Source of the DNA: a virus
Direction: 5' to 3' (one strand)
Virus record (IMG/VR): IMGVR_UViG_3300046466_000161
Location: 1 to 37,036 of that record
DNA: 37,036 nucleotides
The position numbers and the translations under genes were made by a program. Positions 5,950-33,982 of this stretch are shown here, one piece after another; position 1 is the stretch's first letter, and every line of letters starts with the position of its first letter. Below the pieces are notes generated by a model, which worked only from the letters and a program-made list of their open reading frames with translations, was not told the DNA's origin and did not search any database.

Positions 5950-6596
5950 AAATATTTTTAGATACAGCAGACATTAATGAGATTCGTGAGCGTTGGGACA
6001 CTGGTATTATTACTGGTGTAACTACTAACCCAACTCTTGTTCGTAAAGCAGGTGGTAAGTATGTAGATCTTGCCAAATCAATCCTAGAGGAGTTTCCAGA
6101 GATTGAATCTCTTTCTTTGGAAGTCTCTGGTGAAAGTTACATGGATTTCTTGCGTAACATGGGTGATTTTTATCTTGGTCATCCTTCAGTTACATTGAAA
6201 ATTCCTTGTACAAGAGAAGGTCTTAGATTTGTTACGCATTGTGCAGAGAATGGAGTACCAACTAATGTAACATTATGCTTCAGTGCTGCTCAGGCAGTAA
6301 TGGCAGGTCTTTCTGGTGCTACTATGATCTCACCATTCGTAGGTCGTATGAATGATAACTCTTTTAGTGGTGTTGAACTTGTTCGTTCTATCTCACAACT
6401 ATATAAACAGCATGGAGTAGAGACTAAGGTCTTAGCAGCATCATTAAGAGATGCTCATCATGTTTCTAGGTGCCTTCTTGCGGGTGCTGATATAGTAACA
6501 CTACCTCCTAGCACCTTTGATAAGATGTATGATAGTGTACTAACTCGTGAAGGGTTAGAAATATTCAAAAACGATTTCAAGGAGATGGGAGGTTAA
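5946..6596 (+). CDS. talC: Transaldolase (TalC type)
   Basis: Transaldolase moves a three-carbon dihydroxyacetone unit between sugar phosphates in the pentose phosphate pathway. Cyanophages carry this short form and are thought to use it to steer host carbon away from the Calvin cycle towards NADPH and ribose. The 216-residue protein has the family signatures MKIFLDTADI, GVTTNPTLV near residue 24, the Schiff-base lysine K85 in VTLKIP, NVTLCFSAAQA, SPFVGRMND, and DIVTLPP near the C-terminus. The length is typical of the small TalC/fructose-6-phosphate aldolase family. It is coupled to its neighbours by ATGA at the start and TAATG at the end, and the glutaredoxin gene follows. Confidence 0.97.
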   Translation: MKIFLDTADINEIRERWDTGIITGVTTNPTLVRKAGGKYVDLAKSILEEFPEIESLSLEVSGESYMDFLRNMGDFYLGHPSVTLKIPCTREGLRFVTHCAENGVPTNVTLCFSAAQAVMAGLSGATMISPFVGRMNDNSFSGVELVRSISQLYKQHGVETKVLAASLRDAHHVSRCLLAGADIVTLPPSTFDKMYDSVLTREGLEIFKNDFKEMGG

Positions 6597-11663: not shown

Positions 11664-13364
11664 ATGTCATCAAAAGTATACGTTGTCACCCTATATCGTA
11701 GGGAAGATCTACCAAATTTTTATGCTGAAATGGCAGGGAATAATATCCCTTTAGAAAAGAAGAGACCTATCAGTAGAAATACAAATTATTATTTGACTGA
11801 AGAACAAGCAGAAGAACTACGTAAAGATCCTAGAGTCTGGGGCGTAGAATCTCAGGAAGACTTTAAGATTAAACCATGCGTTGTTAATAGAGAACCATAT
11901 AATAAGAGTGGTAACTTTTGGAAAGCAGATACTCAGGGAGGAACAACTATTAGTCCTAATGATTTGCAATGGGGACATATTCATTGTGCAGGAGATGATG
12001 CACAACGTGGTAAGAATAACTTTGGACCTATAAATCTGGGATGGAGTTACGAACAATCAAGTGGTGATGTTGATGTCTTTAATTCTGGTAGACATGTAGA
12101 TGTTGTTATTGTTGATGATTGTGTTTCATATGATAGTGAAGAGTGGTATAGTCAATCTACTAATCAGACAAGATTTGTTCAGTATCAGTGGTTAACTGAA
12201 CTGAATACTTTGGTTAATACTATTGATGATGACGCACAGTCAGAACCAGTTGGTACTATTACATACCATGAAAATGCAAATATGCCTTCTTACCATGGTA
12301 ACCATGTAACAGGTACTGTTGCTGGACAGCATTATGGGTGGGCAAGAGAAGCAAATATATACAATCTTGCAGTTATTGATCCATGGGCATCTGGTCAGGC
12401 AATTCCTCCACTATTAATCTTTGATTACCTCAGAGCATTCCATAGATTAAAAGGTATTAATTCAGAAACAGGTAAGAAAAATCCTACTATAACCAATCAT
12501 AGTTATGGTGGTATTAGATACATGCCCAATCAGCAAAATCTTACATTTGGTGATTTGCAATCGGTAACATTCAGGGGGGTGCAGTATGATTCTGGTAATC
12601 CAGGACCATCTGGTTGGACTCAGAGTGGTGTGGAAGATGATTTTGGTGTTAGATTTAACTTATCAGAATATCCAACATATAGTTCATCAATTGCTGCTGA
12701 TGTACAAGATGCTATCGAAGAAGGTATTGTTGTTGTAGGAGCTGCTGGAAATGATAATTTATTAATAGCAGAAGTAGGTGATCAAGATTGGAATAATACT
12801 TTACAAGTTAATGGTGTTGGAACCTTTTACTATAATAGAGGTGCATGGCCCAATAGTCCTGATAGTGGTGCAATAAATGTTGGTGCTTTGAATAAACAAG
12901 CAGACTTTAGAAGATCTACTTACACGCAATTTGGTCCTGGCATTGACATCTTTGCTCCTGGTGATAATATTGTATCTGCATTTGGAAATAGTGGTTTAAC
13001 TGATAGTAAATACGTGCAAGGATCTGGTAATTATTACTATCCTATTTCAGGAACTAGTATGGCATCACCTCAGGTATGTGGTGTACTTGCTTGCTTAGCA
13101 ACAGGAAAGGATAGATTTAATCAAGAACAATCGTTTGCATACTTAGAAAAGTTATCTAAAGATAATGATATGACATTTAATCTCTCTGGTGGAGGTTTAG
13201 GTGATAATACTTGTTCGTTTGGTAGTCCAAACAAATATCTTTTAGCACAGTCACCAAGGGAAATTGTTGGTTTCATTCAGGATGTTGATGGTAGAAGAAC
13301 ATTTGGTGGTCAAACATACCCTAGATCTAATAGGTTATATGCACCATCTCCTACAAGTCAGTAA
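11664..13364 (+). CDS. Subtilisin-like serine protease (peptidase S8) in the fibre cluster
   Basis: This is a 566-residue subtilase. The catalytic triad is visible: D151 in VVIVDD, H211 in YHGNHVTGTVAG and S465 in SGTSMASPQVCGVLA, with N363 in GAAGND as the oxyanion-hole residue. GINSETGKKNPTITNHSYGG and DIFAPGDNIVSA are also typical of the family. Residues 1-70 (KVYVVTLYRREDLPNFYAEM, then YYLTEEQAEELRKDPRVWGVE) resemble an I9-type propeptide that folds and inhibits the protease until cleaved. There is no signal peptide. Its place between fibre genes, one base after the previous stop, suggests a virion-associated enzyme that processes structural proteins or cuts host surface proteins. The target is unknown. 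Confidence 0.9.
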   Translation: MSSKVYVVTLYRREDLPNFYAEMAGNNIPLEKKRPISRNTNYYLTEEQAEELRKDPRVWGVESQEDFKIKPCVVNREPYNKSGNFWKADTQGGTTISPNDLQWGHIHCAGDDAQRGKNNFGPINLGWSYEQSSGDVDVFNSGRHVDVVIVDDCVSYDSEEWYSQSTNQTRFVQYQWLTELNTLVNTIDDDAQSEPVGTITYHENANMPSYHGNHVTGTVAGQHYGWAREANIYNLAVIDPWASGQAIPPLLIFDYLRAFHRLKGINSETGKKNPTITNHSYGGIRYMPNQQNLTFGDLQSVTFRGVQYDSGNPGPSGWTQSGVEDDFGVRFNLSEYPTYSSSIAADVQDAIEEGIVVVGAAGNDNLLIAEVGDQDWNNTLQVNGVGTFYYNRGAWPNSPDSGAINVGALNKQADFRRSTYTQFGPGIDIFAPGDNIVSAFGNSGLTDSKYVQGSGNYYYPISGTSMASPQVCGVLACLATGKDRFNQEQSFAYLEKLSKDNDMTFNLSGGGLGDNTCSFGSPNKYLLAQSPREIVGFIQDVDGRRTFGGQTYPRSNRLYAPSPTSQ

Positions 13365-29098: not shown

Positions 29099-29118
29099 AT
29101 GAGGGTTTCCTCATTTTT
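29099..29118 (+). terminator. Terminator-like hairpin at the start of the psbA leader
   Basis: ATGAGG (29099-29104) and CCTCAT (29109-29114) close a GTTT loop and run into a T tract. It lies just downstream of the expected psbA start site (about 29093), so it is either a terminator for upstream RNA or an attenuator in the psbA leader. Further inverted repeats follow: CCCC/GGGG (29124-29127 with 29142-29145) and CCACTA/TAGTGG near 29162-29183. Confidence 0.7.
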
Positions 29119-29236
29119 ATTATCCCCCTAACCAAGACCACGGGGTTATAATGTCTTTTTATCCACTAGTGAAGGGATTAGTGGAAATATTATATCGCTC
29201 TTACCCTTTGAGCCCTATAAACATCTTATTGTCCTC

Positions 29237-30319
29237 ATGACAACTCTTCAAAGAAGAGAACAAGGTCTCCTATCTGGATGGTCCGAGTTCTGTGACTGGG
29301 TTACATCAACAAACAACAGAATCTATGTTGGTTGGTTTGGTGTTCTAATGATCCCATGTCTTCTAGCAGCTACAACCTGCTTTATCGTTGCATTTATTGC
29401 AGCACCTCCTGTCGATATCGACGGAATCCGTGAACCTGTTGCAGGTTCATTCATGTATGGTAACAACATCATCTCTGGTGCAGTTGTTCCATCATCAAAC
29501 GCAATTGGTTTACACTTCTATCCTATATGGGAAGCAGCGACTCTAGATGAGTGGTTGTATAACGGTGGTCCTTACCAGTTGGTAATCTTCCACTTCCTTA
29601 TTGGAATCTCTGCCTACATGGGTAGACAGTGGGAACTATCATACCGTTTAGGTATGAGACCATGGATCTGTGTAGCATACTCTGCTCCAGTGTCAGCAGC
29701 ATTCGCTGTATTCTTAGTGTATCCTTTCGGACAAGGAAGTTTTTCTGATGGAATGCCTTTAGGTATCTCAGGAACATTCAACTTCATGTTCGTATTCCAA
29801 GCAGAACACAACATACTAATGCATCCTTTCCATATGGCGGGTGTTGCTGGTATGTTTGGTGGAGCATTGTTCTCTGCTATGCATGGTTCACTTGTTACAT
29901 CTTCTCTAATCAGAGAGACTACAGGTTTGGATTCACAAAACTATGGTTATAAGTTTGGACAAGAAGAAGAGACATACAACATCGTTGCTGCCCATGGGTA
30001 CTTCGGTCGTTTGATCTTCCAATATGCTTCATTCAATAACTCTCGTTCACTACACTTCTTCCTTGCCTCATGGCCTGTGATCTGTGTGTGGTTAACATCA
30101 ATGGGTATATGCACAATGGCATTCAACCTTAACGGTTTCAACTTCAACCAGTCAGTCGTAGACGCATCTGGTAAGGTTGTTCCTACTTGGGGTGACGTTC
30201 TTAACAGAGCAAACCTAGGTATGGAAGTAATGCACGAGCGTAATGCTCACAACTTCCCTCTTGACTTAGCATCTGCTGAGACATCTGAAGTTGCATTAAC
30301 AGCACCATCAATCGGTTAA
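29237..30319 (+). CDS. psbA: Photosystem II D1 protein
   Basis: D1 is the short-lived reaction-centre core subunit of photosystem II. Cyanophages carry it to keep electron flow going during infection. The 360-residue protein is intact with all family features: [57 protein letters not shown], the [18 protein letters not shown] segment, and the C-terminal [21 protein letters not shown] with the manganese-cluster ligands and the processing site after DLA. The residue equivalent to position 130 is Gln (YMGRQWELS), as in the low-light D1:1 form. No intron interrupts the gene, unlike in some cyanophages. It has its own promoter and a structured leader. Confidence 0.99.
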
Positions 30320-32660: not shown

Positions 32661-33092
32661 ATGCAATTATTATTACATGAAGTGCTTCAAAAGGTTAGCA
32701 ATGCTAAGACAAAGGCACAAAAGATTAAACTTCTACAGTCACATAATACACCAGCACTCAGGCAAATCCTGATTGCTAACTTTGATGAGAGCATTATCTC
32801 AATGCTACCAGAAGGTGAAGTGCCTTATAAAAAGAATGATGCTCCTGAAGAAACAGAGCACACTAAATTAGTACACGAGTACCGTAAACTCTATCTCTTC
32901 TTTAAGGGTGGAGCAACTATTTCTCAGACTCGTAGAGAGACTCTATTCATTCAACTGTTAGAGGGTCTACACAAGGGAGAAGCAGACGTTCTTATTCTAA
33001 TGAAGGATAGGAAGATAGGTAAGCGTTGGAAGATCACTAAGCAGTGTGTTGAAGAATCGTTTCCTCAAATCCAATGGGGAGGACGTTCCTGA
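32661..33092 (+). CDS. Conserved cyanophage protein (DUF6433-like), 143 aa
   Basis: This is a helical protein of the type conserved in T4-like cyanophages: LHEVLQKVSNAKTKAQKIKL, then ALRQILIANFDESIISMLPE, VPYKKNDAPE, and a C-terminal half around ETLFIQLLEGLHKGEADVLI. I believe this corresponds to the DUF6433 family; its function is unknown. It joins the next gene with a TGATG overlap. Confidence 0.8.
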   Translation: MQLLLHEVLQKVSNAKTKAQKIKLLQSHNTPALRQILIANFDESIISMLPEGEVPYKKNDAPEETEHTKLVHEYRKLYLFFKGGATISQTRRETLFIQLLEGLHKGEADVLILMKDRKIGKRWKITKQCVEESFPQIQWGGRS

Positions 33093-33415
33093 TGGGTAAA
33101 GGATGTAATGTTATTCATCAAGACTGTGACCCAAAATTAGCACAAGATAGAAGTCTGCCATACAATACTTTCCTCATTGAATACAGTGTGGATGGTAAAC
33201 CTAAGTTTGATATTGCTTCGGGCAGTGGGCAGGTAGATATTTTTGATGAATATTGGGATAAATACAGCAGTGATTTCAAAAATATGACACAGACAGAGGG
33301 TAGAATTAACCCAAAACTGTGGAAAGGAAAACCAAAGGCACAGAAACCAAAGGCACCTCCAAAGGCACCTCCAAAGGCACCTCCAAAATCACCACCTCAA
33401 GGGAAAAAGAAATGA
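33092..33415 (+). CDS. Hypothetical protein with a KAPP-repeat tail, 107 aa
   Basis: The first 75 residues form a possible small domain (KGCNVIHQDCDPKLAQ, NTFLIEYSVDGKPKFDIASG, FDEYWDKYSSDFKNM). The tail is made of repeats of Lys-Ala-Pro-Pro and a basic end. I chose ATG 33092, which overlaps the previous stop and has GGGAGG upstream, over an in-frame ATG at 33074 inside the previous gene. The repeat tail may be an extended linker. Function is unknown. Confidence 0.75.
   Translation: MGKGCNVIHQDCDPKLAQDRSLPYNTFLIEYSVDGKPKFDIASGSGQVDIFDEYWDKYSSDFKNMTQTEGRINPKLWKGKPKAQKPKAPPKAPPKAPPKSPPQGKKK
33347..33394 (+). repeat. Tandem 12-bp repeat encoding the KAPP tail
   Basis: Three perfect copies of CCAAAGGCACCT (33347-33382) are followed by a changed fourth copy. 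Because the unit is 12 bases, copy-number change by slippage would keep the frame and alter tail length only. Confidence 0.9.
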
Positions 33416-33703: not shown

Positions 33704-33735
33704 TTGACATAAATAGTATTGGTATGCTAACATAC
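33704..33735 (+). promoter_or_regulatory. Composite promoter upstream of the tandem-repeat leader
   Basis: TTGACA (33704-33709) is a perfect -35, but no good -10 stands at 17 bases; TAACAT at 18 bases (33728-33733) is the best candidate. A CATAAATA late box (33708-33715) overlaps the -35. As at psbA, host-type and late-type signals are superimposed. Confidence 0.6.
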
Positions 33736-33737
33736 CT

Positions 33738-33827
33738 ATACGTTCATCTCACAAGAGACGCAAGTAAGACGACACGGAACGGATACGTTCATCCCTAACG
33801 GGACGCAAATGCCGCCCGAAGGAACGG
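33738..33827 (+). promoter_or_regulatory. Tandem 45-nt structured leader repeat
   Basis: Two direct copies of exactly 45 bases (33738-33782 and 33783-33827) share 31 of 45 positions. Each copy begins ATACGTTCAT, holds a 4-bp hairpin, then GACGCAA, and ends GGAACGG. The first hairpin is TCTC-ACAA-GAGA and the second TCCC-TAAC-GGGA, so one T-A pair is replaced by a C-G pair while pairing is kept. This compensatory change and the constant flanks point to a structured RNA or a protein-binding array in the leader of the small gene that follows. GC content is higher than around it. Confidence 0.75.
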
Positions 33828-33859
33828 TCTAAACAACCTCATCCTACAGGAGAAAACCG

Positions 33860-33982
33860 ATGGCACAAGTCACATATCGTGGTGTTAAGTACGACACCAA
33901 CGACAATAAGCAAGCAAAATCACAGATGGTTACATTAACCTACCGTGGTGTTAAGTCTGAAAAGGAATTAACTGCTGCTTAG
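33860..33982 (+). CDS. DUF4278-like small protein with an internal repeat, 40 aa
   Basis: The 40-residue protein carries two copies of (V/L)TYRGVK(Y/S), at residues 4-11 and 26-33, the core of the cyanobacterial DUF4278 family. A strong AGGAG ribosome site (33848-33852) lies upstream. It has its own promoter, an unusually long structured leader and a strong terminator, so it is a stand-alone, probably highly controlled transcript. The function of the family is unknown. Confidence 0.85.
   Translation: MAQVTYRGVKYDTNDNKQAKSQMVTLTYRGVKSEKELTAA

Follow-up and report, generated by a model that had tools for sequence, protein, structure and literature searches.

The DNA analysed is a 37,036-base stretch, positions 1-37,036 of IMG/VR record IMGVR_UViG_3300046466_000161, and is called the window throughout. 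Its encoded proteins, which we read from their translations as ribonucleotide reductase subunits, transaldolase, PsbA and thymidylate synthase, and a PhotoRC-II RNA before psbA identify it as a fragment of a T4-like cyanophage. The PhotoRC-II RNA occupies 29109-29198 (56.9 bits), upstream of psbA at 29237-30319. Elsewhere in the window, an ORF at 11664-13364 carries the subtilisin-like motifs HGNHV and GTSMASP and has tail-fibre-like neighbours, and 12-nt tandem repeats CCAAAGGCACCT at 33347-33394 encode a PPKA repeat at the C terminus of the ORF at 33074-33415. The locus of interest combines promoter-like elements, a tandem repeat with two hairpins and a small gene:

33704-33733, plus strand: promoter-like elements (sequence; resemblance to consensus)
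33704-33709, plus strand: -35 element TTGACA (sequence)
33709-33715, plus strand: late-type ATAAATA, overlapping the -35 element (sequence)
33721-33736, plus strand: inverted repeat GGTATG-CTAA-CATACC over the -10 element (sequence)
33725-33733, plus strand: extended -10 element TGCTAACAT (sequence)
33747-33758, plus strand: P2 hairpin of copy 1, UCUC-ACAA-GAGA (covariation)
33792-33803, plus strand: P2 hairpin of copy 2, UCCC-UAAC-GGGA (covariation), the site of a loop ORF in relatives
33826-33838, plus strand: possible competing hairpin GGU-CUAAACA-ACC (sequence)
33848-33852, plus strand: Shine-Dalgarno AGGAG (sequence)
33860-33982, plus strand: DUF4278 protein, 40 residues (PF14105, 29.1 bits, E = 1.3e-6; phrog_5049)

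The first-pass annotation had described a composite promoter before the repeat, and promoter-like elements do lie directly upstream of it; among the matches listed, nearly all relatives have the same arrangement directly upstream of CGTTCA. The position of the -10 element implies a transcription start near 33740, from which the leader would measure about 120 nt, a refinement of the 145 bases first given; the order of promoter, leader and gene stands as first described. Judging from the promoter, the aptamer described below would start at the RNA 5' end or 1-2 bases from it. Most relatives have an inverted repeat of differing sequence at this site (arms of 6-9 nt; 97 of 132 loci among the matches listed), and a late-type TAAATA motif often precedes it. 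Any transcript initiated upstream of the inverted repeat could carry it as an RNA hairpin.

Spanning 33738-33782 and 33783-33827, the two copies of the repeat have 45 nt each and are identical at 31 positions, as had been reported, and they are the only adjacent pair with at least 31 matches among the 36,946 adjacent 45-mer pairs of the window. Both end in GGAACGG. We also reproduced the pairing-preserving swap between the hairpins (U-A at 33749:33756, C-G at 33794:33801) and the difference between their loops, ACAA in copy 1 and UAAC in copy 2; with two 4-nt loops and no loop ORF, the window represents a minimal form. A search for further compensatory changes in homologues before small genes, as the first-pass annotation had proposed, was positive: the P2 hairpins covary strongly across relatives, and in copy 1 of the short-loop relatives among the matches listed the first P2 pair is UA in 76, AU in 18, GC in 2 and CG in 2, that is, paired in 98 of 98.

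These relatives came from phage records (57 with a homologue of the 40-residue protein and 192 with DNA similarity, 22 regions being read) and from an IMG/VR scan for GGAACGG-N1-6-CGTTCATCC, which returned at least 120 stretches. Phage records and the IMG/VR matches listed together hold at least 135 distinct junctions, window included. Because the junction and the three leading 5' bases of the second P2 are set by the scan pattern, the covariation claims exclude them; the pattern leaves the first P2 and P3 free. All locus counts given here come from related loci and do not equal independent events. Contigs with the phage element also lie inside bacterial MAG or single-cell assemblies (L154, L182, L234, L239, L254 and L259), which indicates that these binned genomes contain cyanophage contigs. 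Among 300 genomes of the host family the repeat junction occurred in one, and since this sole match, L154, is a contig with phage gene order, no host copy was found in those genomes; likewise, across 41 host-family genomes, phrog_504, a family of loop ORFs discussed below, was found on contig L154 only.

In sensitive mode, Rfam matched the repeat to two glutamine riboswitch families, RF01739 (glnA, type I; 33739-33830, 33.3 bits) and RF01704 (Downstream-peptide, type II; 33738-33791, 32.0 bits). Their gathering cut-offs are 35 and 33 bits, respectively, and because the window scores 1-2 bits below both, a gathering-level search missed them. Four relatives exceed the RF01739 cut-off (L018, 37.9; L009, 37.8; L012, 35.9; L013, 35.4 bits). 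Scored separately, copies 1 and 2 reach 32.0 and 22.8 bits with RF01704, and the per-genome E values for the two copies are 7.3e-8 and 3.2e-5. The RF01739 alignment runs through the 5' half of copy 1, passes over 47 nt and ends with the 3' half of copy 2. The type I P1 (CGUUC/GAACG, 33741-33745/33822-33826) and P2 hairpin (33747-33758) are present, as are, in the composite only, the loop-E strands AGUA and GAA beside P3. The short local P3 hairpin that defines the canonical form is absent, P3 instead spanning the repeats and enclosing about 35 nt, and we therefore call the element a variant type I. From type II, the pseudoknot strands and the C19-G41 pair are present in both cores; of the type II P2 helix flanking GGAACGG, Rfam's alignment with the window marks most pairs as non-standard. 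The first-pass suggestion of a structured regulatory RNA is thus borne out. A site bound by a protein, an sRNA or a ribosomal factor finds no support, since the conserved positions are those of metabolite-sensing aptamers, and the motif, for which that annotation had no name, has one.

The elements of the proposed fold are as follows:

33741-33745, plus strand: 5' strand of outer P1, CGUUC, with C1 and G2 of the ligand site (Rfam alignment, RNAalifold)
33759-33766, plus strand: core CGCAAGUA, with G18 at 33760 and C19 at 33761 (Rfam alignment)
33763-33766, plus strand: loop-E strand AGUA (copy 1)
33767-33774, plus strand: 5' strand of P3, AGACGACA (cross-copy covariation in relatives)
33776-33790, plus strand: inner permuted core, GGAACGG (33776-33782), linker AUA and CGUUC (33786-33790) (RNAalifold)
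33804-33809, plus strand: inner core CGCAAA, with G18 at 33805 and C19 at 33806 (sequence)
33810-33817, plus strand: 3' strand of P3, UGCCGCCC (cross-copy covariation)
33818-33820, plus strand: loop-E strand GAA (copy 2)
33821-33827, plus strand: 3' strand of outer P1, GGAACGG, with C39, G40 and G41 at 33825-33827 (Rfam alignment, RNAalifold)

An outer type I aptamer (P1, P2, an AGUA/GAA loop E and P3 at 33767-33774/33810-33817) would be built from the first repeat's 5' half and the second repeat's 3' half, and its P3 would enclose a circularly permuted second core that consists of GGAACGG, CGUUC, the P2 hairpin at 33792-33803 and CGC at 33804-33806. The pairing that joins the copies links the letters after the AGUA of copy 1 with those before the GAA of copy 2. 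Short forms of this P3 read AGUCG/CGACU or AGUCA/UGACU, and in the long form the innermost pair alternates between U-A and A-U; among the matches listed, 368 of 370 and 342 of 448 cross-copy pairs are standard, a result that none of 5,000 shuffles equalled, and the pairing collapses when the register is slid. No P3 hairpin of more than 2-3 bp local to one copy was found. In the window, five of the eight P3 pairs are standard and three are A.C; position 3 of the long form is C.A in 53 of 56 loci among the matches listed and A.C in two, the window included. AGUCA/UGACU occurs in L117, which has an MNTL-type downstream gene and ORFs in both loops, and in L008, L103 and L128, which have another gene context; it must therefore have had repeated origins or been transferred by recombination. 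The loop-E strands are asymmetric, AGUA being restricted to copy 1 and GAA or AAA to copy 2.

When 30 gene-less forms, the window among them, were aligned with MAFFT, the composite structure had 94.8% of cells paired, with 47 cells changed on both sides compared with 12 in shuffles and a covariation of 0.170 compared with 0.060. RNAalifold, given no structure, pairs the CGUUC of copy 1 with the GGAACG of copy 2 and the GGAAC of copy 1 with the CGUUC of copy 2, which is the nested topology, and leaves P3 open owing to its mismatches. Energy folding of the window sequence alone did not return the aptamer. As the P1-type helices are invariant across the alignment, the choice of partners rests on P3, the loop-E asymmetry and energy. 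Ordinary type I aptamers with a local P3 exist in hosts (L266) and in one MAG, so the composite can be described as a type I aptamer with a permuted core inserted in P3; the MAG example (L167, Blastopirellula) is a single canonical type I aptamer with the phage-like core CGCAAGUA-AGCC-AGA-GGCU-GAAGGAACGG and is a possible ancestor form of the composite. One locus, L128, holds a triple array of consecutive aptamer units, with junctions at 6543 and 6772 and with short, ORF and short loops.

In the crystal structure of the type II aptamer, C1, G18, C39 and G40 contact glutamine, and the C19-G41 pair and G2 complete the site (PMC6698751). All of these nucleotides are kept in the outer core (33741, 33742, 33760, 33761 and 33825-33827) and in the inner core (33786, 33787, 33805, 33806 and 33780-33782), and from these conserved contacts the RNA of the window probably binds two glutamines. 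The type II aptamer works in two pieces and swaps strands in the crystal (PMC6698751), which makes an interrupted, strand-exchanged core plausible.

The same repeat could instead hold two independent tandem glutamine aptamers, one per 45-nt copy, giving the steeper response suggested for tandem glnA RNAs. Each copy does have a CGUUCA-hairpin-CGCA-GGAACGG core that RF01704 scores separately, tandem glnA RNAs are on record (PMC2864571), and the invariant helix strands permit both pairings, so that the two folds could interconvert. We nevertheless consider this arrangement unlikely, given that the P3 strands covary between copies and not within them, with local hairpins of at most 2-3 bp, that the two loop-E strands are split between the copies, and that RNAalifold favours the nested fold. 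The first-pass annotation saw two like units; P3 covariation joins them into one composite fold.

Two further readings question the ligand or the level at which the element acts. A diverged aptamer could keep the fold and bind another ligand, or a protein-binding RNA could have reused the glutamine fold, as the Rfam scores just under the cut-offs and the difference between the core CGCAAGUA and the type I consensus CGGAAGUA might suggest. But the change at position 19 is matched at 41, G-C in type I becoming C-G here and in type II with the pair kept, all named ligand-contact nucleotides are retained, and the DUF4278 partner is that of the hosts, all of which makes such a change of function improbable. 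That the direct repeats adjoin a promoter, with an inverted repeat over the -10 box, would fit an array of DNA operators bound by a transcription factor of the phage or the host, akin to the DNA-binding array raised by the first-pass annotation. Against this, both P2 and P3 show compensatory changes, the element keeps a constant place downstream of the start predicted from the promoter, and the conserved positions are those of RF01739 and RF01704 aptamers; in view of the RNA covariation we dropped this reading, to which we give almost no weight. We thus favour, with a probability of roughly 0.78, one composite glutamine riboswitch formed by the two repeats at the 5' end of the DUF4278 mRNA, glutamine binding being predicted from the conserved site.

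In about three quarters of the relatives among the matches listed, one or both P2 loops are a complete small gene (examples are L003, L004, L014 and L021, with about 95 more). For the 131 listed loci in which both loops were resolved, first and second loops are short and ORF in 66, both short in 32, both ORF in 25, and ORF and short in 8. Second-loop ORFs among the matches listed start 4-5 nt past CGUUCA in 91 of 92 cases and stop one base before GGAACG in 85 of 92 (TGA in 59, TAA in 26), so that the aptamer core codes for their C-terminal residues (DAND or DAKAD); termination of first-loop ORFs is often at the TAA within AAGUAAG (IIGRK). P2 is kept around the second-loop ORFs, its first four pairs forming in 91, 91, 91 and 89 of 91 listed cases and the fifth, to which in most loci the start codon contributes its A, in 82 of 91. 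With median dN/dS values of 0.21 and 0.25 among the matches listed, the loop ORFs are, as judged from their sequences, under purifying selection. They belong to phrog_504, phrog_6471 and phrog_13397, families annotated with no function, and have a short hydrophobic N terminus and, in phrog_504, two invariant Cys residues; PSSM7_205, PHM1_179 and PHM1_180 are loop ORFs that had been annotated independently. In L006, L008, L010, L014 and L015 the glutamine element has a manA RNA (RF01745, 162-193 bits) no more than a few hundred bases away.

Within the short-P3 lineage, the sequence GGAG (G40-G41-A-G) is present in 57 of 58 listed loci with a second-loop ORF and in 0 of 16 without (p = 2.5e-15, kinship ignored), which suggests that in this lineage a Shine-Dalgarno sequence is built from the ligand-site strand. 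Because a loop ORF begins at the P2 stem and in most cases ends within loop E, its translation should be incompatible with a folded sensor, and vice versa. In gene-bearing relatives one sensor might then set the loop gene and the DUF4278 gene in opposite directions, with the window as the gene-less minimal form. We advance only tentatively, at slightly under even odds, the idea that cyanophages have a gene-bearing riboswitch in which a composite, strand-exchanged double aptamer holds a complete gene in one or both P2 loops, glutamine binding and loop-gene translation are mutually exclusive, and there are two opposite outputs.

The downstream ORF passes the PF14105 cut-off of 25.3 bits, in keeping with its earlier description as DUF4278-like, and the two copies of a core motif reported in it are two YRGVK motifs. 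Its start codon, which has a Shine-Dalgarno sequence, lies 39 nt downstream of where the last GGAACG begins. In cyanobacteria, glutamine aptamers stand mainly upstream of DUF4278 genes, DUF4278 spans the N-terminal part of IF17, a glutamine synthetase inactivating factor, and glutamine activates expression through both riboswitch types (PMC6316151). PirA was considered as a relative of the 40-residue protein; it is reported absent from marine picocyanobacteria (PMC8092223).

Glutamine would stabilize both P1-type helices, and G40 and G41 take part in each of them. At low glutamine, these two bases of the outer helix would be available to the tail hairpin at 33826-33838, from which glutamine binding would withhold them, and the shifted balance near the Shine-Dalgarno sequence would change translation of the 40-residue protein. 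The tail hairpin has a mean pairing probability of 0.67-0.68 over the tails of 113 relatives and about 0.4 in the window. By homology with cyanobacterial hosts, we lean moderately towards glutamine raising this translation (ON); modelling of Shine-Dalgarno accessibility in the free and bound states gave no consistent ON or OFF sign.

The family-level identity, a glutamine riboswitch in cyanophages with a DUF4278 partner, is already known, glnA matches having been published in cyanophages, for example a 99-nt match in S-CREM1 (PMC9964418). With glutamine type I (RF01739) the element shares P1 CGUUC/GAACG, the P2 hairpin, the AGUA/GAA loop E, P3 and, as in cyanobacteria, a downstream DUF4278 gene, whereas here P3 closes across repeats around a circularly permuted second core, C19-G41 replaces G19-C41, and relatives carry P2-loop genes. 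With type II (RF01704), which in marine picocyanobacteria also precedes short DUF4278 ORFs, it shares the CGUUCA-hairpin-CGCA-GGAACGG core with C19-G41, but the window is without the P2 helix that flanks GGAACGG in type II. Tandem riboswitches, such as those for glycine and the tandem glnA RNAs, likewise have two ligand sites of the same kind in a leader; here, by contrast, the sites share strands, the outer one drawing a half from each repeat and the inner one being permuted. Group I introns with endonuclease ORFs are structured RNAs that hold a complete ORF in a peripheral loop. The relatives' RNA, too, holds a complete ORF in a loop, but it is a predicted metabolite sensor in which the ORF fills the loop of an aptamer stem, with start and stop codons in or against aptamer elements, and the window has no loop ORF. 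We found no description of the strand-exchanged composite or of the gene-bearing loops in the literature searched; an earlier mention elsewhere is possible.

The finding links a common leader of T4-like cyanophages to host nitrogen status, as the phage RNA should read glutamine and control the DUF4278 protein. If correct, the interlocking would make this RNA a naturally occurring double aptamer with exchanged strands, and the relatives would be, as far as we found, the first riboswitches with whole genes in aptamer loops, in which ligand binding and translation would compete within one RNA in a manner that is directly testable.
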